This document shows, piece after piece, positions 1-8,804 of a stretch of 33,134 nt of DNA (its first letter is position 1; each line of letters opens with the position of its first letter). Origin of the DNA: Candidatus Nomurabacteria bacterium CG1_02_43_90 (GTDB lineage: Bacteria; Patescibacteriota; Minisyncoccia; Phycocordibacterales; UBA1550); contig MNVN01000021.1 in assembly GCA_001871765.1 (NCBI GenBank), forward strand, positions 1 to 33,134, written 5' to 3'. Under the pieces are notes generated by a model. It saw only the letters and a program-made list of their open reading frames with translations. It had not been told where the DNA came from and ran no database searches. Position numbers and translations under genes: made by a program.

Positions 1-32
1 GGTCGTAGGTTCGATCCCTACCCGCGGAGCCA
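1..32 (+). tRNA. 3' end of a tRNA gene (partial, cut by window edge), possibly tRNA-Asn
   Basis: T-arm gtagg-ttcgatc-cctac has a perfect 5-bp stem at 5-21; acceptor 3' strand ccgcgga at 22-28; G73; encoded CCA at 30-32. The GGAGCCA ending resembles bacterial tRNA-Asn, but the anticodon is outside the window. Confidence 0.9.
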
Positions 33-1535
33 GTTAGGACTGTCAGCCAGTTCTAGTACTAGATTGAACGGAGAAGCTATTGAAAAATATAGCTTTTTTC
101 CTTTTACAGTCGGGTTCTGAAGTATCAAACTTAAAAACGCTCTTTTATTAGCAACTTCAGAACTGTTCTCAAAAATAGATTTAGCTCTTCGTGCTACAGA
201 AAGCACTGTAGCAACGGTTGTTTGGTAATCGTAGTCTGCTTTTGTATGCTCTGAAAGTTCAATTTCCAAAGTCTGTATCTGGTCCTGATACTCTTCGTGC
301 TTTTTGTCATAGATGTCCTTAGTAATACTCTGGTCCAAAAATGCTTCAAGTAATCGGTTCTGTTTTGCCTTTAGTTTATCGTAATCTGTCCGTATACGAT
401 TTATTTGTGCCTTATGAAAAACCACTTCGGTTTCAGTGTTCTTGCGTAGCTCATCAACGAGTTCGTTCTGAGCTTCCTCTGTGATGCTTGCAAAGCGGTC
501 TAGGACCTCGTAGACGGGCTTGAGAAGCTCTAATTCGTTTACATATACTCTCTTACATATCTTCTTAGAATTGGTACAAGAATACAGGTTATATTCCTTA
601 CCACTTGGCTTTTTATGGTACTCAGGACTATAGAGACAACCGCAGTTCTGACACTTGAGCAAGCCATTGAACAGGAAGTCCCTAGACTTTGCCTTGTAGG
701 GCGTATTCCTGCGTTTTAGGCGTATCTCTTGGCACTTATCAAAGAGTTCTCTGTCTATCAAACGAGGGTATTTATGGGCATATGGACCATATTTTTTTGA
801 TATAGCAACACCGCAATAAAAACTATCTTTAAGCATATTTTCAATACAACTTTTGGATAGCTTAAAACCCTTGAGACTTCGTAGTCCAAGTTCCGTAATT
901 TTTATTCGTACGGTTTCTAGTGAGTAACTTCCTGTAGCATAAAGCTCAAACATCTTTTGAACTAGATGTCCTCTTTCAGGGTCTATGATGATGTCTTTTC
1001 GTAATCGCTTTTCTTGGTCTAGGTGAACATTCAAATAACCCAAACGAACACCTCCTGTCCATTCGCCATTTCTTCGTTTCTGTTCAAACGCTCGCTTAAC
1101 ATTATCGCCAATAGCATCTGAGTAATACTTTGCTAACCCTAAACTCATACCGAACTGGAACTTTTCAACGGCTGACATTTGGTTATTGATAACCTGACCG
1201 TCTGATACAAAGTGAAGTTCAATCTTATCGGCTAGAGCCATTTCGTAGAGTAAGCCAACCCTTTTATCAAAAACACTACCTCTTGAAAATCGGTCTACCT
1301 TATCAAAACAAACGGCAATCTTTCCTTTTTTTGATACTTCTTGTATATGTTCAACTATCGTATCAAACTCATCTCTTTTAGTTTTATAAGCACTTTCTTC
1401 AAAGCTGTAGGTTTTAATAATATCAAAAGACTTTTTGCTACAGTAACTTTTAATTCGCTCTTCCTGAGCAGGCAAAGAGTTATTAGCTTCCTTTTGTTCT
1501 TCAGTTGATACTCTGGCTACATTTATTGCTTTCAT
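18..1535 (-). CDS. Large serine recombinase / site-specific integrase
   Basis: 505 aa. N-terminal resolvase domain (ARVSTEEQ...SLPAQEERIKSYC, FDKVDRFSRG), recombinase domain, zinc-ribbon-like CQNCG...CTN region and coiled coil. The stop codon lies inside the tRNA. Confidence 0.95.
   Translation of the reverse strand: MKAINVARVSTEEQKEANNSLPAQEERIKSYCSKKSFDIIKTYSFEESAYKTKRDEFDTIVEHIQEVSKKGKIAVCFDKVDRFSRGSVFDKRVGLLYEMALADKIELHFVSDGQVINNQMSAVEKFQFGMSLGLAKYYSDAIGDNVKRAFEQKRRNGEWTGGVRLGYLNVHLDQEKRLRKDIIIDPERGHLVQKMFELYATGSYSLETVRIKITELGLRSLKGFKLSKSCIENMLKDSFYCGVAISKKYGPYAHKYPRLIDRELFDKCQEIRLKRRNTPYKAKSRDFLFNGLLKCQNCGCLYSPEYHKKPSGKEYNLYSCTNSKKICKRVYVNELELLKPVYEVLDRFASITEEAQNELVDELRKNTETEVVFHKAQINRIRTDYDKLKAKQNRLLEAFLDQSITKDIYDKKHEEYQDQIQTLEIELSEHTKADYDYQTTVATVLSVARRAKSIFENSSEVANKRAFLSLILQNPTVKGKKLYFSIASPFNLVLELADSPNWLRG
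24..33 (+). repeat. att core, left copy (attL), GCGGAGCCAG
   Basis: Identical to 7858-7867; overlaps tRNA acceptor end and CCA. Confidence 0.75.
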
Positions 1536-1538
1536 ATA

Positions 1539-2399
1539 TTATGCAACCGCAACTCTTGTGGTTTTTACTTTTATTTCACTAGTAGGAGTTAAGTTAGCTT
1601 CTTGAACATTGTAATTTGTAATTATAAGCTCTTTTCCTTTAGCTGCCGTTTCTTGTTTATAGTTGTTCATTCCATACTGAAATTCCCAACTTATAATGTT
1701 TGCAAAAGAAAATAATTCTCTAACTTCTGGACAATCATCGTATGTAATCATCCATTTGTGTTTTGTTTTTCTCATAACTTCAGCAAATCTTTTGTGGTCA
1801 AAACCTGTATGTAAATTACCGTTTTTCCCATAAAGGCGAGATTTTGTCGCAGAAAGATATGGAGGGTCTAAGAAGATAAACACATCTTTTCCGTCCTTGT
1901 TTACCAAATCCTCATAATCTAGATTTGTAATTTCAGTGTCATTCAGTATTGATGAAACTGGCTTCAATCTATCTATTGATGACTGAGTAAACCTAGCATC
2001 AAATGCTCCTTGTGAATAACCACCTGCTTCAATGGTCCCAGAGAATGTAATCCTATTTAGAACAAAAAATCTGATTGCTTTTTCTAGGCTAGATTTTGGA
2101 TTATTCTCTACAAGTTTTCTATGCAAAGACCTTCCATTTTTTTCAGTATCTTTTACCTTTTGAACTCCTTTCACTAGTCCTTTACAGTCATCTTTTAATT
2201 TTAACCAAAGGTGATACAAGTCATTATTCAAATCATTTACCCAGTATTTTTTATCAGGATATGCCTGTTTGAGTGCAATAAATACTGAGGCACCACCAAG
2301 AAATGGCTCTCTGAACTCGGAGAACTTTGGAACTAATGGTATTATTTTTTTAATCGCCTTAGCTTTTCCTCCTGGATACCTTAGTGGTGTAGTAATCAT
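1539..2399 (-). CDS. D12-class DNA N6-adenine methyltransferase (Dam/EcoRV-type)
   Basis: 286 aa with PLRYPGGKAK, REPFLGGASVF and DPPY motifs. Confidence 0.93.
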   Translation of the reverse strand: MITTPLRYPGGKAKAIKKIIPLVPKFSEFREPFLGGASVFIALKQAYPDKKYWVNDLNNDLYHLWLKLKDDCKGLVKGVQKVKDTEKNGRSLHRKLVENNPKSSLEKAIRFFVLNRITFSGTIEAGGYSQGAFDARFTQSSIDRLKPVSSILNDTEITNLDYEDLVNKDGKDVFIFLDPPYLSATKSRLYGKNGNLHTGFDHKRFAEVMRKTKHKWMITYDDCPEVRELFSFANIISWEFQYGMNNYKQETAAKGKELIITNYNVQEANLTPTSEIKVKTTRVAVA

Positions 2400-2401
2400 A
2401 A

Positions 2402-3556
2402 TTAGTTATTAGTTATTTCTACCTCATAATCATTCTCTGTAGCTTCTTCATTTAGCATTGTAATTGAAGCCGTATCTGGACGAGATATTTTTTCTTTATG
2501 TACAAAAGAAGCTATATTTTCCTGAGTAGTTGGCAACTTCAGAGAAGAAGATATTCTTCCAGTAAGTTTCAAACTAACCTTGTAGTCATATTTTATTTCA
2601 TCTATGTGAATAGTTTTTATTTGAGAAAATAATAGTATTTTAAATAAGCCATCTTTTATATCTGCTGATTTTGGTAACTTTTCAGTGGTTGCATTTTTTG
2701 CTTCCTGAATTATTAGCTGTTTTTTATCTTCATCAATAATAATTTCGTCTGCTGTCAAAAAATAGCTACCGCCTAAATTATTGACTATTTCAAATACCAG
2801 CTTTTCACTTTCAAGTGAAAGATGTTCATTTTTATGCTTAACAACAACTTCTCTTGCTGCTGCTAATCTTGATTTTGCTAGTGTCTCAGAAGCAAAATTA
2901 TTCAAACTAATTGTTTTAGGATTTGATTTATCAATTATTTTTTCTAGGAAAGCTTTATGCCCTGATGAAGGGTGCAATTTTACGGAAAGTTTTTCTGATA
3001 TTGCATCGTATGATGAAACAGCTTTTTCGTATACATCACGAAAATCTTTTATGAAATGCTCATTATTCCAATGATGTGCATCAAATTGATACTCGCTAAT
3101 TTCTTTTATTTTCTTTTTAATATAATTCGTATCAAACTTTTGACTTGTAATACGATATTCGGTTTTCTTTTCAGCATCAGAATACCAAGCTAGGATTACG
3201 AAAACATTGGTAAGGTTCATCCAAGATAAAGTGATGAAGTTTATTCTGTCATTGTTGGATTTATTTTTTGAAGCACCAATACCTTCATCTTTAATAATCG
3301 GAATTATGGTTATTCTTTTGCCGCCAAAACTATATGTGTCATAAATCCTTGCAAACGGATAGGACCTAGTACGCTTTGGTGTAACCCATTTAGAATAGGC
3401 GACTTTATTCTTTTCATCAATTTCTACAATACCACTAGCTGAAGCTTCATTTACATCAAAATCAGCAAGTTTATATTCATTTAGCTTGTTCTTCCTCATT
3501 GAAGTACCTGCTCGGTATTTCAGATTTTCAATTTTTGCTTTTATTATTTTTGCCAT
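2402..3556 (-). CDS. Hypothetical protein, candidate type II restriction endonuclease paired with the adjacent methyltransferase
   Basis: 384 aa ORF 2 nt upstream of the methyltransferase in the same operon. C-terminal IIIDEDKKQLIIQEAKN resembles a PD-(D/E)XK core. Confidence 0.5.
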   Translation of the reverse strand: MAKIIKAKIENLKYRAGTSMRKNKLNEYKLADFDVNEASASGIVEIDEKNKVAYSKWVTPKRTRSYPFARIYDTYSFGGKRITIIPIIKDEGIGASKNKSNNDRINFITLSWMNLTNVFVILAWYSDAEKKTEYRITSQKFDTNYIKKKIKEISEYQFDAHHWNNEHFIKDFRDVYEKAVSSYDAISEKLSVKLHPSSGHKAFLEKIIDKSNPKTISLNNFASETLAKSRLAAAREVVVKHKNEHLSLESEKLVFEIVNNLGGSYFLTADEIIIDEDKKQLIIQEAKNATTEKLPKSADIKDGLFKILLFSQIKTIHIDEIKYDYKVSLKLTGRISSSLKLPTTQENIASFVHKEKISRPDTASITMLNEEATENDYEVEITNN

Positions 3557-3557
3557 A

Positions 3558-3737
3558 TTATTTAGTACTTACTTTTTTCAGAAAAGCTTGAAACTCTGCA
3601 TCATCAACCCTATATTCACGACCAATCTTGTAAGCCTTAAGGCGACCTGCTTTTATGTATCGGTAAATTGTCATAATATTTACCTGTAGCAATTCAGCAA
3701 GGTCCTCTGCTTTATAAAACTCTTTTTCTTTAATCAT
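3558..3737 (-). CDS. Excisionase-family helix-turn-helix protein (59 aa)
   Basis: Translated directly: MIKEKEFYKAEDLAELLQVNIMTIYRYIKAGRLKAYKIGREYRVDDAEFQAFLKKVSTK. HTH_17-like pattern. Not in the ORF track (short). Confidence 0.88.
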   Translation of the reverse strand: MIKEKEFYKAEDLAELLQVNIMTIYRYIKAGRLKAYKIGREYRVDDAEFQAFLKKVSTK

Positions 3738-3793
3738 ATTTTTTGTAATTGATTTAATAATTATACTTTACTCTACGATACATAGCAAACGTC

Positions 3794-4093
3794 CTAACTC
3801 AATGTGGACATTAGAATTTCATCAAAAATCTTTTTCTTATCCTTACTGGTCCAATCAGGATTATCTCTAACGCTGATTTCATAAAAATGAGCCATATTTT
3901 CCCAAATAAGAAGCTCTTTTTCAGGATATAGGTCTCTCTGAAAATTGCTTAAGGTTTCTTCTATTGAAGATATCTCAACCTCTTTGATTATTTCTTTATA
4001 TTTTTGCACTCTTACAACAAATCCGTTCGGTAACACCTCTTGTCTAATTGGACCAATTTTTATATCTGACACTTTAATTTTATTTGTTTTCAT
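3794..4093 (-). CDS. Hypothetical protein (99 aa) in element operon
   Basis: Co-oriented ORF overlapping the end of the rep gene by 14 nt. Confidence 0.65.
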   Translation of the reverse strand: MKTNKIKVSDIKIGPIRQEVLPNGFVVRVQKYKEIIKEVEISSIEETLSNFQRDLYPEKELLIWENMAHFYEISVRDNPDWTSKDKKKIFDEILMSTLS

Positions 4094-5213
4094 ATTTTTT
4101 AGTTTTATATGGTTGATAATCTTCTAATTTTTTATCTATCTGAGTAACCCAATCTCTGAGCTTATTCTTGGTTATAAGCTCACTGGCTTGTTGCATATCT
4201 TTTGCTATGCGATACCAAGTTCTATCGTGAGAACGCTTTGATACAATCGTGCGTAACTGCCTCATTCCACTCTCATCCCTTGCGAGCATAAACAGCCCAA
4301 GAAGATAAATTGCTTGTTTTGGTTTTAGTTTCTTATCTGCCAAAAACAAGGTTCTCAAAATATCTTTGACGCTTATTGAGATTGAAAACAGCCCAAGATT
4401 TCGTTCCTTTATAAGCTTCTGCCAGTAGCTATTGACCACTTTCTTACTCAGTTCAGAACTAAATACTTCCTTGAATGTTGGGTTCTTTGTGTATCCCAAT
4501 TCTTCAATTAGTTTATTCATCTTCTGCTTATGATTTAGTCGTATCTCAAACCGTATCACTTCGTTAAGTTCTGGGTCTTTATTTAACTCTGCAAACAAGC
4601 TCCTCTGGTAAGGATTTTGGTCTTTATCTATGGCTCGTTTTTTATCCTTACCCAAGTCGGCAATCTTGTCGTAAATGACTAGCTGATGAGCAGTTGTATG
4701 AGCATACAAACTCTGACCGTCATTCATAAAGCGTGTCTTTGCAAAATCAAAACTCTTTCGTAGGTTCACTTTATTCATCTCAGAAATTAAATGAGTAACT
4801 GTATATCCGTCTTCAAGTTGAATGTTTTTTGAGAAGTGAACTGAACTGACTGATGCTTTTTCAAGGATTGATTTTGTTGCAACTATTCCCATAGTTTTCA
4901 ATCGGTCTTGAAGCGTATCAATCACTTTAGGGAAATCCCTATCTTCAAGTTCATCTAGGTTATTGAGGTAAAGCAATTTTGGAACAGAAAACTCAATTCG
5001 GACATTAGCATCCAGCCCATAGCTCTTTCTTCTGTAACCTGTCAGCCGAGGGAAATACAGACCACTATCCAAATCTCTTTTTGAGGGATTTTTCACAAAC
5101 TTGTCATATTGGTCTGTTTTGGAATGTAGGTTCCAAGTAGGCACGCCGTAAGATGATAAATCTAGGAATGTGAGCTTGTCTTTCGGTATCAATAAGCACA
5201 CAGTGTCAATCAT
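4080..5213 (-). CDS. Phage/plasmid replication initiator, gene II/X-like
   Basis: VRIEFSVPKLLYLNNLDELEDRDF and HQLVIYDKIADL resemble the phage replication protein II/X family. Start revised to the internal Met (MIDTVCLLIPKD), which overlaps the stop of the upstream 54-aa ORF. Confidence 0.75.
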   Translation of the reverse strand: MIDTVCLLIPKDKLTFLDLSSYGVPTWNLHSKTDQYDKFVKNPSKRDLDSGLYFPRLTGYRRKSYGLDANVRIEFSVPKLLYLNNLDELEDRDFPKVIDTLQDRLKTMGIVATKSILEKASVSSVHFSKNIQLEDGYTVTHLISEMNKVNLRKSFDFAKTRFMNDGQSLYAHTTAHQLVIYDKIADLGKDKKRAIDKDQNPYQRSLFAELNKDPELNEVIRFEIRLNHKQKMNKLIEELGYTKNPTFKEVFSSELSKKVVNSYWQKLIKERNLGLFSISISVKDILRTLFLADKKLKPKQAIYLLGLFMLARDESGMRQLRTIVSKRSHDRTWYRIAKDMQQASELITKNKLRDWVTQIDKKLEDYQPYKTKKYENK

Positions 5214-5370
5214 TTCTTTCTTTCTTAATCTGATAAAAAGCAGGGTTTTGTTTCTTATCCTCTTTGATAAGCCACACAAAAGCACCGACGAATTTGGTCC
5301 TGTCTTCAAGTGATAAATCGTTTATGTTGAAGCAAACTTTCGGCTCTTGTGGTTTAGTAGTACTCTGCAT
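5206..5370 (-). CDS. Small leader ORF upstream of rep (54 aa)
   Basis: Translated directly: MQSTTKPQEPKVCFNINDLSLEDRTKFVGAFVWLIKEDKKQNPAFYQIKKERND. Overlaps the rep start, as in a translationally coupled pair. Confidence 0.6.
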   Translation of the reverse strand: MQSTTKPQEPKVCFNINDLSLEDRTKFVGAFVWLIKEDKKQNPAFYQIKKERND

Positions 5371-5427
5371 AAAAACACAATCTTACGATTGTGCTTTTAG
5401 AATAAAGTATCGTTCGCTTAAGTTTGC

Positions 5428-6678
5428 TTAACTTACACTGACATATTTAGGGTCCAACCGTGCCGAATGTATGGTTAGGTCAAATAGATTTTCAACTTGC
5501 GGAATAGTAAGTTTAACTTTTTTGTTGAACTGGTAAATTGCATTTTTTACCGCAATTTCATTTACATCATCACCGCCAAGAGTTTCGCTTATCTCGTATA
5601 AACTCCATTCTCCGTAAGTGTTTTTAGGGTGTTGAAAGACAACTCTTAATACCTCTTTTTGTACTTGTCCCTGCACCTTAATTTTGTATTCTTTGCCGTT
5701 TGTATCAGTCAAAATCATTGTTCCAGTCTGTAGTGAAAAACTTAAGTTCAGCTTAATTTCTTTCTCGTTATCTATCTTTTCAGTCTCTTTTGTATCTTCC
5801 TGACCAAACAGAGAAGCCACTGTTATAGGCAGTTTATGGAACTTAACATTCCAAAGTTCGGTATCATTCCAGTTACGGACCTTAAGTCTTTTTTGTCTTT
5901 CAAGATATGAAAGCACTTTTACAACTTCAAAATCCTGCTCAGACAAAGATGAAAAAGGGATATTTATATTTCCGTCAATCAAAGGAAAGCGTTTAATATA
6001 TTCAACAAAGTTTTCTATCTGTTTTGAGAAGTAAAATCTTTTTTGCCGATAGGTTGGCTTCTTTTCTATAAATTGGTCCTCACTGAAGTTATCAATGTAA
6101 TCATCAATAGCTTCATTCGCTTCAATCGGACCCTTTTTATCAAACTCAACTTCAAACTCAATAAATGCGGAAGCTACTTGAGAAATGTATTGGATATTTC
6201 TATGAAAGTCGTATTCAGTAAAATCAACCCTGTCCCATTTTGCGGTATTATAGTCTTTCACATCTAAACGTTGAGCATCTTTCAAACCTTTTAATTTGTA
6301 CACTTCATCAATGTAAGCCGAATACATCATTACTTCGTTTTCAGTACCGTTCTTTTCCTCAACGGCTTCTCGTACGATTTTTTCTGCAAGACTAGATATG
6401 TCCTTTACGCTAACTCTTATAATTTTTCCTATATTCAAATCCTTAATCATCTGTATAACTTGCTGAAGAACAAGGTCTTCAGCCGAGCCGTAGTCATTGG
6501 TATCTCTGATTTCATCAGCTATTTCTTCAATCTTCCAATAATCCCCTTTGAGAAATTGGTCTAACGAAAATATATTTTGACCTCTATAAAAACTCTCAAG
6601 CACAATATGAAGTGCTAGTAGTTTTATATCCGTATTAAAATAATCAAAAGTATCTACCTGTTCGTCTTCTTCCATCAC
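5428..6678 (-). CDS. Hypothetical protein (416 aa), unknown function
   Basis: Long ORF, GTG or following ATG start; divergent from the AlbA_2 gene. C-terminal part could be winged-helix-like. Confidence 0.8.
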   Translation of the reverse strand: MMEEDEQVDTFDYFNTDIKLLALHIVLESFYRGQNIFSLDQFLKGDYWKIEEIADEIRDTNDYGSAEDLVLQQVIQMIKDLNIGKIIRVSVKDISSLAEKIVREAVEEKNGTENEVMMYSAYIDEVYKLKGLKDAQRLDVKDYNTAKWDRVDFTEYDFHRNIQYISQVASAFIEFEVEFDKKGPIEANEAIDDYIDNFSEDQFIEKKPTYRQKRFYFSKQIENFVEYIKRFPLIDGNINIPFSSLSEQDFEVVKVLSYLERQKRLKVRNWNDTELWNVKFHKLPITVASLFGQEDTKETEKIDNEKEIKLNLSFSLQTGTMILTDTNGKEYKIKVQGQVQKEVLRVVFQHPKNTYGEWSLYEISETLGGDDVNEIAVKNAIYQFNKKVKLTIPQVENLFDLTIHSARLDPKYVSVS

Positions 6679-6728
6679 TATACTTTACTCTAGTTTACAT
6701 ACCCAATCAAGATTGGTAGAATTAGATT

Positions 6729-7790
6729 ATGCAAAAAACTCCATCACAGGATTTGTTTAACCAGATAGAAAAGCAGGGTCTTACTTATATTGATGACGCC
6801 ATAAACAGCAAACAGGTAGAGAATTACTATTTAGATTTTAAGAGTACAGAAAAGGACGACTACACAGGCGAAAGAAAGCTTTTTGCATCTGATAAAAAGA
6901 ATTATGCAAAAGCCATATCAGCTTTTGGTAACAGTGATGGAGGAGTTCTTGTTTGGGGTGTTAAGACAGGAACTGCTGATGCTGACTATGCTACCGCAAA
7001 AGCATCCATAAAAAATGTTTCCAATTTTGTCAGTTTGCTTGAGGGTTTCACCTCAATACTAACTACACCTCCTCATCCAAATGTTACGAATAAGGTCATT
7101 TATGAAGATGAAGGAAATGATACAGGGTATGTAATAACCCATATTGGTAAATCAAACAGAAGACCTTTCCAAGTAATAAACGAGAACGATTTTAGATACT
7201 ACATCCGAGCAGGTAGTAATTCACAACCAGCATCCGATACTTTTCTCAGAGCTTTGTTTGGACAGGAGCCACAACCTGACACATTTGTTACTTTTGGAGT
7301 GTCGCCTGTAACAATTGATGCTGAGGGAGAAATAAAAATGCAGGTTGGTATCATCCTGCACAATGGAGGTGAAAATGTATCAAAAAATATAAACGGCTAC
7401 GTGCAAGTTGGTGGTTTGGGGATGATGCTTCAGATAAATACACCGAACGAGTTTACTTACTATCAGAATAAAATATCAGGTCTAAAAATTGGCTTTACAG
7501 CAAAACCAGATTTTATTCTGGGAGTTGAGCAAGAGGTTCAACCTTTGATTATGTATATAACTCTTAAAAAACCTATTACATCAAATGGCATTCAAATAAT
7601 TGTCTTGGTAAACGGAGCTAATCAAATGAGCCATAGGACTTATAAAGAAATCAGCAAAGATGACCTAGAGAAGATGTACGACAGTTTTGTTCAAGATAAT
7701 AGCTATGACATAGTAAACGCTATTCTTGGTAAAGAAGATACAGGAGTATCGGACCCTAGTTCTGAAGTGAGAGCTGAGGAAACAACGTAA
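6729..7790 (+). CDS. AlbA_2-domain protein (Schlafen AlbA_2-like putative DNA/RNA-binding)
   Basis: 353 aa: YLDFKSTEKDDYTGERKLFASDKKNYAKAISAFGNSDGGVLVWGVKT is AlbA_2-like; C-terminal half not recognised. Confidence 0.85.
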   Translation: MQKTPSQDLFNQIEKQGLTYIDDAINSKQVENYYLDFKSTEKDDYTGERKLFASDKKNYAKAISAFGNSDGGVLVWGVKTGTADADYATAKASIKNVSNFVSLLEGFTSILTTPPHPNVTNKVIYEDEGNDTGYVITHIGKSNRRPFQVINENDFRYYIRAGSNSQPASDTFLRALFGQEPQPDTFVTFGVSPVTIDAEGEIKMQVGIILHNGGENVSKNINGYVQVGGLGMMLQINTPNEFTYYQNKISGLKIGFTAKPDFILGVEQEVQPLIMYITLKKPITSNGIQIIVLVNGANQMSHRTYKEISKDDLEKMYDSFVQDNSYDIVNAILGKEDTGVSDPSSEVRAEETT

Positions 7791-7857
7791 GGATACCGCT
7801 AAACTGTAATTCGCTCTTAATTTTGGTCCAATTCGCAGTTCTGAATGCGTCCACTGT

Positions 7858-7867
7858 GCGGAGCCAG
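7858..7867 (+). repeat. att core, right copy (attR), GCGGAGCCAG
   Basis: Identical to 24-33. Both copies encode W-L-R in the same minus-strand reading frame. Confidence 0.75.
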
Positions 7868-8063
7868 GTATAAAAAACAGGCGAAAACTCGCTTGTTTTT
7901 TCATTTAAGCTTTTGATATCAATGTACTTTTTAGGTTCGAACTTTTCAATTTCTAATTTAACCAAAGGAATGCCATCTAATAGAGCTTGAATTGATTTTT
8001 TGTTGATAGCAATGAGTTTTTCTTCATTCCACGCTAGGTTCGTACCTAGTTTATGTAATAGTT
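7868..8063 (-). pseudogene. Probable relic C-terminus of a second serine recombinase, reading into attR
   Basis: Open minus-strand frame LLHKLGTNLAWNEEKLIAINKKSIQALLDGIPLVKLEIEKFEPKKYIDIKSLNEKTSEFSPVFYTWLR, in the same frame and orientation relative to the att core as the intact recombinase. Confidence 0.55.
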
Positions 8064-8294
8064 ACTTTTGTGCTTTTATTTCGACCCCAAGAGCACTATC
8101 CCCCATCTTGTTGTAATTGACGGTATTACCGATGGTACCATTTTCTATAATGATCCCGCGGCTAAAACCGGACAACTGCAAATCTCGACCGCCAACTTTC
8201 TTAAGGCATGGAAAAAAGACTAATCGTTATCCGTCCTGCAGGAGAAACTCTTTCTTTTACAGGAACCGCAACAGTTGAATACTCTGTGTAAGGT
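8057..8294 (+). pseudogene. Truncated C39-like peptidase fragment
   Basis: Frame gives FDPKSTIPHLVVIDGITDGTIFYNDPAAKTGQLQISTANFLKAWKKD-stop. A -1 shift at the A6 run continues as RLIVIRPAGETLSFTGTATVEYSV-stop. No N-terminal part. Confidence 0.5.
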
Positions 8295-8303
8295 GTTTAA
8301 AGT

Positions 8304-8804
8304 ATGTTGCAATTCAAACTTGAACTCGGGTTTCCTCACCTTGACCTTTCTCAAGCAACCCTTGCTGATATTCTTGAGTTCCATGAAGAAAATTCTGAAA
8401 AAATCCTCATCGACCAAGGGTTTGGAATCGCTGCAAGTATCGCAGGAAAACATCATAACTACCGCAACCTCAAAATGCGTTTCCCCATAAGTACTAGCGT
8501 CTTGAAGGTGAGCATCACGCTTGAAGAACTCCTTACCCTCTCCGACATAGAGCAAGCGTTGTCCTCAAAACGATCTTACAAAGAAACCTTAAAAATGCCT
8601 TCCCTTCTTTCTGGCTTGATCGCGGAGACAGAGCGACACAATATAAACCCTATAATAACAAGCCTTTTGGTGGGCCAAGAGATTTCGCGCATCTCAGGAG
8701 AAGACCGTGCGGGGTATGACAAAAAAGAGATGCTTGCACTAGGGAATTGTGAAAAATTTGTCCATGACCACCAAGTGGCAATCGACGAATTCACAACGGT
8801 ATAG
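8304..8804 (+). CDS. Hypothetical protein (166 aa)
   Basis: Longest ORF in the interval, upstream of uppP. Confidence 0.65.
   Translation: MLQFKLELGFPHLDLSQATLADILEFHEENSEKILIDQGFGIAASIAGKHHNYRNLKMRFPISTSVLKVSITLEELLTLSDIEQALSSKRSYKETLKMPSLLSGLIAETERHNINPIITSLLVGQEISRISGEDRAGYDKKEMLALGNCEKFVHDHQVAIDEFTTV

Follow-up and report, generated by a model that had tools for sequence, protein, structure and literature searches.

Large serine recombinases (LSRs), or serine integrases, are an enzyme class used in genome engineering. Among the archaeal "suicidal" integrases, a tRNA gene is the target for several members. The latter enzymes, exemplified by SSV1, pTN3 and pT26-2, are tyrosine recombinases with attP in the integrase gene itself; integration therefore leaves a gene fragment at each end of the element, the catalytic part being lost to the other fragment (PMC8371274). 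According to a 2021 review, only archaea possess recombinases that disrupt their own gene (PMC8371274), and serine integration into tRNA genes has been called rare (PMC3218068). Integration that truncates a protein is also known from the integration-dependent immunity of mycobacteriophages such as BPs, where attP is located near the 3' end of a repressor gene and integration into a tRNA gene by a tyrosine family integrase shortens the repressor and adds a stop codon (PMC9262239). Finally, several elements can be arranged in tandem at one tRNA, for example in the case of AICEs (PMC3218068).

Here, we describe a tRNA-Asn locus of Candidatus Nomurabacteria bacterium CG1_02_43_90, whose assembly comprises 0.68 Mb in 22 contigs. 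The window, i.e., the entire analyzed stretch of 33,134 nt, is contig C20 of this assembly. As the contig edge lies at position 1, only the last 32 nt of tRNA-Asn(GTT), from the T-arm to CCA, are contained in it (1-32, plus strand); these nucleotides match exactly the complete tRNA-Asn on contig C8 (G000:C8:156638-156713), the sole complete tRNA-Asn found in the assembly. The attL core GCGGAGCCAG is located at 24-33 and the 10-bp sequence is repeated exactly, as a direct repeat, at the attR site (7858-7867), which delimits an element termed Y. The minus strand of the window encodes the intact LSR of Y (18-1535, 505 aa, ..LELADSPNWLRG-stop), in which the N-terminal resolvase catalytic domain, the recombinase domain and the zinc ribbon are all present above the Pfam cut-off (Resolvase, 1e-17; Recombinase, 8e-13; Zn_ribbon_recom, 2e-6) and which also matches PHROG 95 (integrase, 9e-74). 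This protein ends in ..SPNWLRG, followed by a TAG that belongs to the tRNA; the last codons of the integrated recombinase (LRG) and its stop codon are thus supplied by tRNA-Asn.

Behind the recombinase, Y carries a type II restriction-modification cargo on the minus strand (1539-3568), consisting of a D12/Dam-type methyltransferase (1539-2399) and a restriction enzyme (2402-3556; PADLOC MTase_II, 4e-126, and REase_II, 6e-59; Pfam D12). It is followed by backbone genes on the same strand (3558-6684) that are shared with a second element, X, at 83% nucleotide identity over 2.1 kb: an excisionase-like HTH protein (3558-3737; TIGR01764 excisionase, 7e-12), a 99-aa protein, a conserved 409-aa protein (4080-5309) and a 416-aa protein. 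The 409-aa protein is without clear family match and might, as a guess, be a replication initiator; homologues that are 39-75% identical exist at six other loci (L126, L129, L135, L137, L141, and L142). The right end of Y is occupied by a gene for a SLFN/AlbA_2-domain protein on the plus strand (6729-7790; Pfam, 3e-10). X is found beside tRNA-Asn on contig C8, with 80% identity to Y in the recombinase and 83% DNA identity in the backbone. The two elements combine one backbone with different type II restriction-modification pairs in the slot behind the recombinase (window 1539-3556; L010 8219-10497), and methyltransferase genes are present in this slot at L135 and L137 as well.

X and Y both adjoin the tRNA-Asn 3' end in one assembly, with 41 nt identical (window 1-42; G000:C8:156682-156723). 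The right flank of the window, with genes for an MFS transporter and an HI0933-like protein, has kept its gene order with the related genome G011, in which both genes lie at least 11 kb downstream of tRNA-Asn, and a pyruvate kinase gene is located upstream of tRNA-Asn in most relatives and on C8. Most simply, therefore, C8 and C20 are the two sides of one locus. Since the assembly contains only one right-end piece, the population was probably mixed, with X and Y as alternatives at one tRNA. A tandem pair of X and Y in one cell was also considered: the start of C20 is identical to the tRNA over 32 nt, but the identity is limited to about 10 bp at the known right end, which makes alternative occupancy the likelier arrangement.

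Beyond attR, a preliminary description of this DNA had noted a minus-strand frame of about 65 codons, entering the core in the W-L-R frame of the intact recombinase and resembling the tail of another serine recombinase, and had proposed that an earlier element used the same site and decayed. We find that the minus frame is open from 8061 to 7756 (101 codons), 68 codons of which (8061-7858) are located outside Y, and that it reads Y-T-W-L-R on entering the core, its phase being that of S-P-N-W-L-R-G-stop in the intact recombinase. Homology to serine recombinases continues for four codons past an in-frame TAA (8062-8064), which interrupts a conserved stretch, and ends at about 8073. The region 7858-8073 thus comprises the C-terminal 72 codons of a second serine recombinase, of the type found in G006 and at locus L076; it retains the C-terminal family homology, lacks the catalytic domain and is a relic, not a working LSR. 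Compared with the C-termini of intact LSRs, it gives E-values of 1e-14 to 1e-18, and compared with those of the intact Patescibacteria LSRs of about 570 aa, it is about 43-57% identical without gaps.

Matches to the relic occur in 25 of 397 genomes of the order, in several of them at E-values of 1e-13 to 1e-18 and, where alignments were made, without gaps over 73 codons. The strong ones fall on the C-termini of 569-607-aa frames, of which nearly all are located at tRNA-Asn, and most of the intact homologues read into this tRNA and finish there as LRG-stop. In the same genus, the 564-aa recombinase of G006 (46% identity to the relic in its C-terminus, E = 1e-14) overlaps tRNA-Asn and ends as ..STMLRG-stop inside it, and a separate scan yielded 16 named loci, the best being L076 at 57% identity. 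A first scan of viral contigs with the relic alignment gave no match. Sequence comparison detected no relation at this level between the relic and the recombinase of Y itself, and the relic represents an LSR lineage other than that of the intact enzyme in the window. That the 68 codons are open by chance, or are plain intergenic sequence behind the tRNA, could be argued from the missing start codon and from the fragment's having no useful Pfam or PHROG family match on its own; given gapless alignments to intact recombinases at the same tRNA, we attach practically no probability to this view. It is further contradicted by the LSR-free loci of the genus (G003, G005, G008, G009, and G011), where the relic sequence is absent downstream of tRNA-Asn and the tRNA is followed by unrelated sequence, mostly a terminator hairpin. 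At three of these LSR-free sites (G003, L035; G008, L039; G009, L038), about 20 nt of the tRNA 3' end recur, inverted and imperfectly copied, after the terminator.

The relic also bears marks of decay. It is fused at about 8074-8077 to a C-terminal fragment of a C39-like peptidase (8077-8291, plus strand; about 65 of 200 aa; Pfam C39, 8e-4, and alignment to genes of G003 and G005), which has a frameshift near 8215-8220, and this fragment is followed by the C-terminal 166 aa of a 412-aa protein (8304-8804, plus strand; 61% identity, E = 4e-60) that exists whole near tRNA-Asn in G003. The ratio of first- plus second- to third-position changes is 1.73 in the relic, the highest of the set (intact genes, 1.28-1.62), and for this reason weakly suggests relaxed constraint. 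Joining the relic computationally to the tRNA as if Y were absent yields ..SPVFYTWLRG-stop, as the preliminary description had predicted. Its proposal of an older, decayed element at the same site withstood the two objections that it had named itself, as the frame has recombinase homologues and the LSR-free relatives in the genus lack the sequence. The rest of that element is lost, the relic leading to the in-frame TAA and then to the junction with the C39 fragment. A terminator-like hairpin lies inside the relic coding sequence adjoining the core (7872-7901, plus strand; -14.6 kcal/mol, z = -4.8) and a counterpart is present in G006 (-15.6 kcal/mol, z = -5.4); such a hairpin may take over from the tRNA terminator upon integration. 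A hairpin in the same position of a recombinase coding sequence was seen at L044 (about 4228-4260), and the stem sequences differ among relatives. As to other broken serine recombinases, the same genome contains two more (G000:C7:14300-14536 and G000:C14:94-252, with an internal TGA and a fragment at a contig edge), an isolated, decayed tail in G105 has no tRNA in its vicinity, and a candidate second isolated tail in G020 proved to be a contig end.

The preliminary description was correct that the relic frame reaches the core, but overlooked that the frame passes across attR and runs on for about 33 codons inside Y (7863-7756, minus strand; LRTVDAFRTANWTKIKSELQFSGILTLFPQLSLQN-stop). These codons are the true C-terminus of such LSRs, and the intact recombinase of the relic type at L076 has the same C-terminal continuation (..FSPVFSTMLHLVDKFRTANWTGIKSDLQFSGVLELL..), on which the AlphaFold model of this unsplit protein is uninformative (pLDDT below 50). 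Such orphan pieces, typically forming the right ends of elements behind tRNA-Asn, were detected at E <= 1e-3 in about 30 genomes out of 397 and at E <= 0.1 in 58, almost always as a short separate frame; at the latter threshold, none was found in G006, G002 and G015, whose right ends either differ or have been lost or were not assembled. In 24 of the 30 listed loci, the piece starts with the in-frame CTC of the core and is preceded by unrelated DNA, often a terminator. Among 20 fetched regions, which include some short contigs, 11 have a tRNA-Asn upstream of the piece on the predicted side and strand (about 0.2 expected) and none has it in the opposite orientation.

Six complete elements, Y included, consist of a tRNA-Asn-ending LSR on the left and an orphan piece on the right, 7-14 kb apart, and when attL and attR are joined at the core, all six yield a single uninterrupted frame. 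For Y, the predicted circular junction reads ..SPNWLRTVDAFRT.. and would make the recombinase gene whole (..SPNWLRTVDAFRTANWTKIKSELQFSG..). It follows directly from this arrangement that attP lies inside the LSR gene and that integration shortens the protein, as has happened to the recombinase at 18-1535. A different reading of 7756-8073 is that the relic and the orphan piece are a single unsplit, decayed recombinase of the older element, with Y ending elsewhere. This reading, suggested by the continuous 101-codon frame, is quite improbable in view of the exact repetition of the core at the tRNA end of Y and of complete elements in five other genomes that end at the same place with the same piece; moreover, a continuous frame across the junction is just what a gene split by integration predicts for a tandem array.

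Within the orphan piece, codons 9-25 show a pN/pS of 0.43 (bootstrap 0.27-0.64; 26 sequences), compared with values of 0.88 and 1.16, i.e., about 1, in the shifted frames. The piece is thus kept by purifying selection at the protein level. Codons 1-8, beside the core, are conserved in DNA as well, with TTCAGAAC nearly fixed and a smaller difference between frames, and may be constrained as DNA in addition. The latter observation would fit the idea that the conserved right end is a non-coding DNA arm of attP, serving as an integrase binding site only. We regard this as unlikely: DNA binding alone explains codons 9-25 poorly because they are farther from the core than the usual half-site, they vary mostly at third positions, and complete proteins with the same C-terminus exist at L076 and in G399. 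The fused C-terminus had no match in plasmid and phage collections, and an unsplit recombinase C-terminus is encoded on L149, a 37.6-kb IMG/VR contig. On this putative viral contig, an unrelated GIY-YIG-like stretch, fused in frame, stands in place of the upstream LSR part (2380-3084), possibly a homing endonuclease insertion.

Tandem elements, which the preliminary description had suggested looking for at this tRNA in related genomes, were indeed found. Three consecutive elements, with three recombinases of three lineages, lie behind a single tRNA-Asn in G399. The tRNA-proximal LSR0 is shortened in the tRNA (..SLLPR-stop), and LSR1 (Y type, 78% to Y) and LSR2 (relic type) are both unsplit, each receiving its C-terminus from the preceding element and thus having full length. 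G401 contains the 3' half of tRNA-Asn, an X/Y-type LSR with backbone, a junction with an orphan piece and then a relic-type LSR whose continuation is frameshifted just past the junction; it represents the arrangement of the window before decay. The window locus itself, with the relic and Y, is a tandem array in the sense that core-bounded integrase genes, here two, share one tRNA; G399 has three. Five further loci (L133, L134, L139, L144, and L145) were seen to carry two to three orphan pieces in series without recombinases, at one tRNA-Asn or on one short contig, and such series can be used to count past insertions. The coexistence of X on C8 and Y on C20 at the tRNA-Asn 3' end hints at a mixed population or a contig break and, with it, at a misassembly that joined the recombinase end of another strain to Y, so that no real second element would exist here. 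This is highly improbable, as the relic is fused to degraded gene fragments and contains an in-frame stop, which would not be expected of DNA from a living element, the right flank keeps the gene order of the same locus in G011, and intact versions of the arrangement occur in G401 and G399.

Taken together, successive integration at one tRNA-Asn is well supported, and we consider it very probable that the relic stems from the left end of an older element, that Y integrated later at the same core and that both belong to a group with attP inside its own gene. In this model, the older element would have been located at tRNA-Asn, its recombinase reading into the tRNA and the relic being its attL-side left end. 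Y would later have entered at this core, on the tRNA side of the older element, an order deduced from position only, and the older element would have been eroded to about 210 bp. Both would belong to a Patescibacterial LSR group with attP about 33 codons before the end of the recombinase gene. In the circular element, a form whose existence in cells we infer, the gene is whole; integration at the tRNA-Asn 3' end splits it, leaving the LRG-ending recombinase with its tRNA-derived stop at attL and the orphan C-terminal piece on the attR side. Upon a second insertion, the displaced recombinase is joined to the orphan piece of the newcomer and regains full length, and only the tRNA-proximal recombinase stays truncated, as seen in G399. 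Excision would likewise restore the full-length frame. The identity of the relic, the split gene and its restoration in frame, the selection on the orphan piece and the natural arrays are seen directly in the sequences.

The full-length and truncated proteins may differ in activity; probably, the full-length form would favor integration, or the truncated form would block or change excision. Hence the hypothesis that truncation regulates recombination. A widespread Patescibacterial switch, in which the full-length enzyme integrates, the truncated one is unable or differently able to excise, and a later insertion may reactivate a displaced integrase, is proposed tentatively, with somewhat less than even confidence. 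The split gene would give the LSR C-terminus a natural role in directionality, and one that can be tested. In turn, the orphan piece is a practical marker: it fixes the right ends of elements, which are difficult to locate as a rule, and allows successive insertions at one tRNA to be counted in a group of bacteria for which few experimental systems exist.

A literature search of incomplete coverage returned no report of self-splitting by integration for serine recombinases, and the novelty of the arrangement is therefore provisional. Y resembles known LSRs in its domain architecture, the short core repeat at the element ends and the nearby excisionase-like gene, but differs in targeting a tRNA 3' end and in the position of attP, which falls within the recombinase gene. 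In comparison to the tandem arrays of AICE type, several elements likewise stand in a row, but each insertion here also changes which recombinase reads full length. With BPs, Y shares an attP near the 3' end of a gene, truncation by integration into a tRNA and the added stop; the truncated protein, however, is not a phage repressor but the recombinase itself. The closest likeness is to the archaeal suicidal integrases, as attP within the gene and a fragment at each end are shown by the six complete elements, the arrays and the fusions. In contrast to these tyrosine recombinases, the Y type is a serine recombinase of bacteria whose catalytic domain is retained, the loss amounting to about 33 C-terminal residues, and self-splitting in bacterial serine integrases would be an invention independent of the archaeal enzymes.
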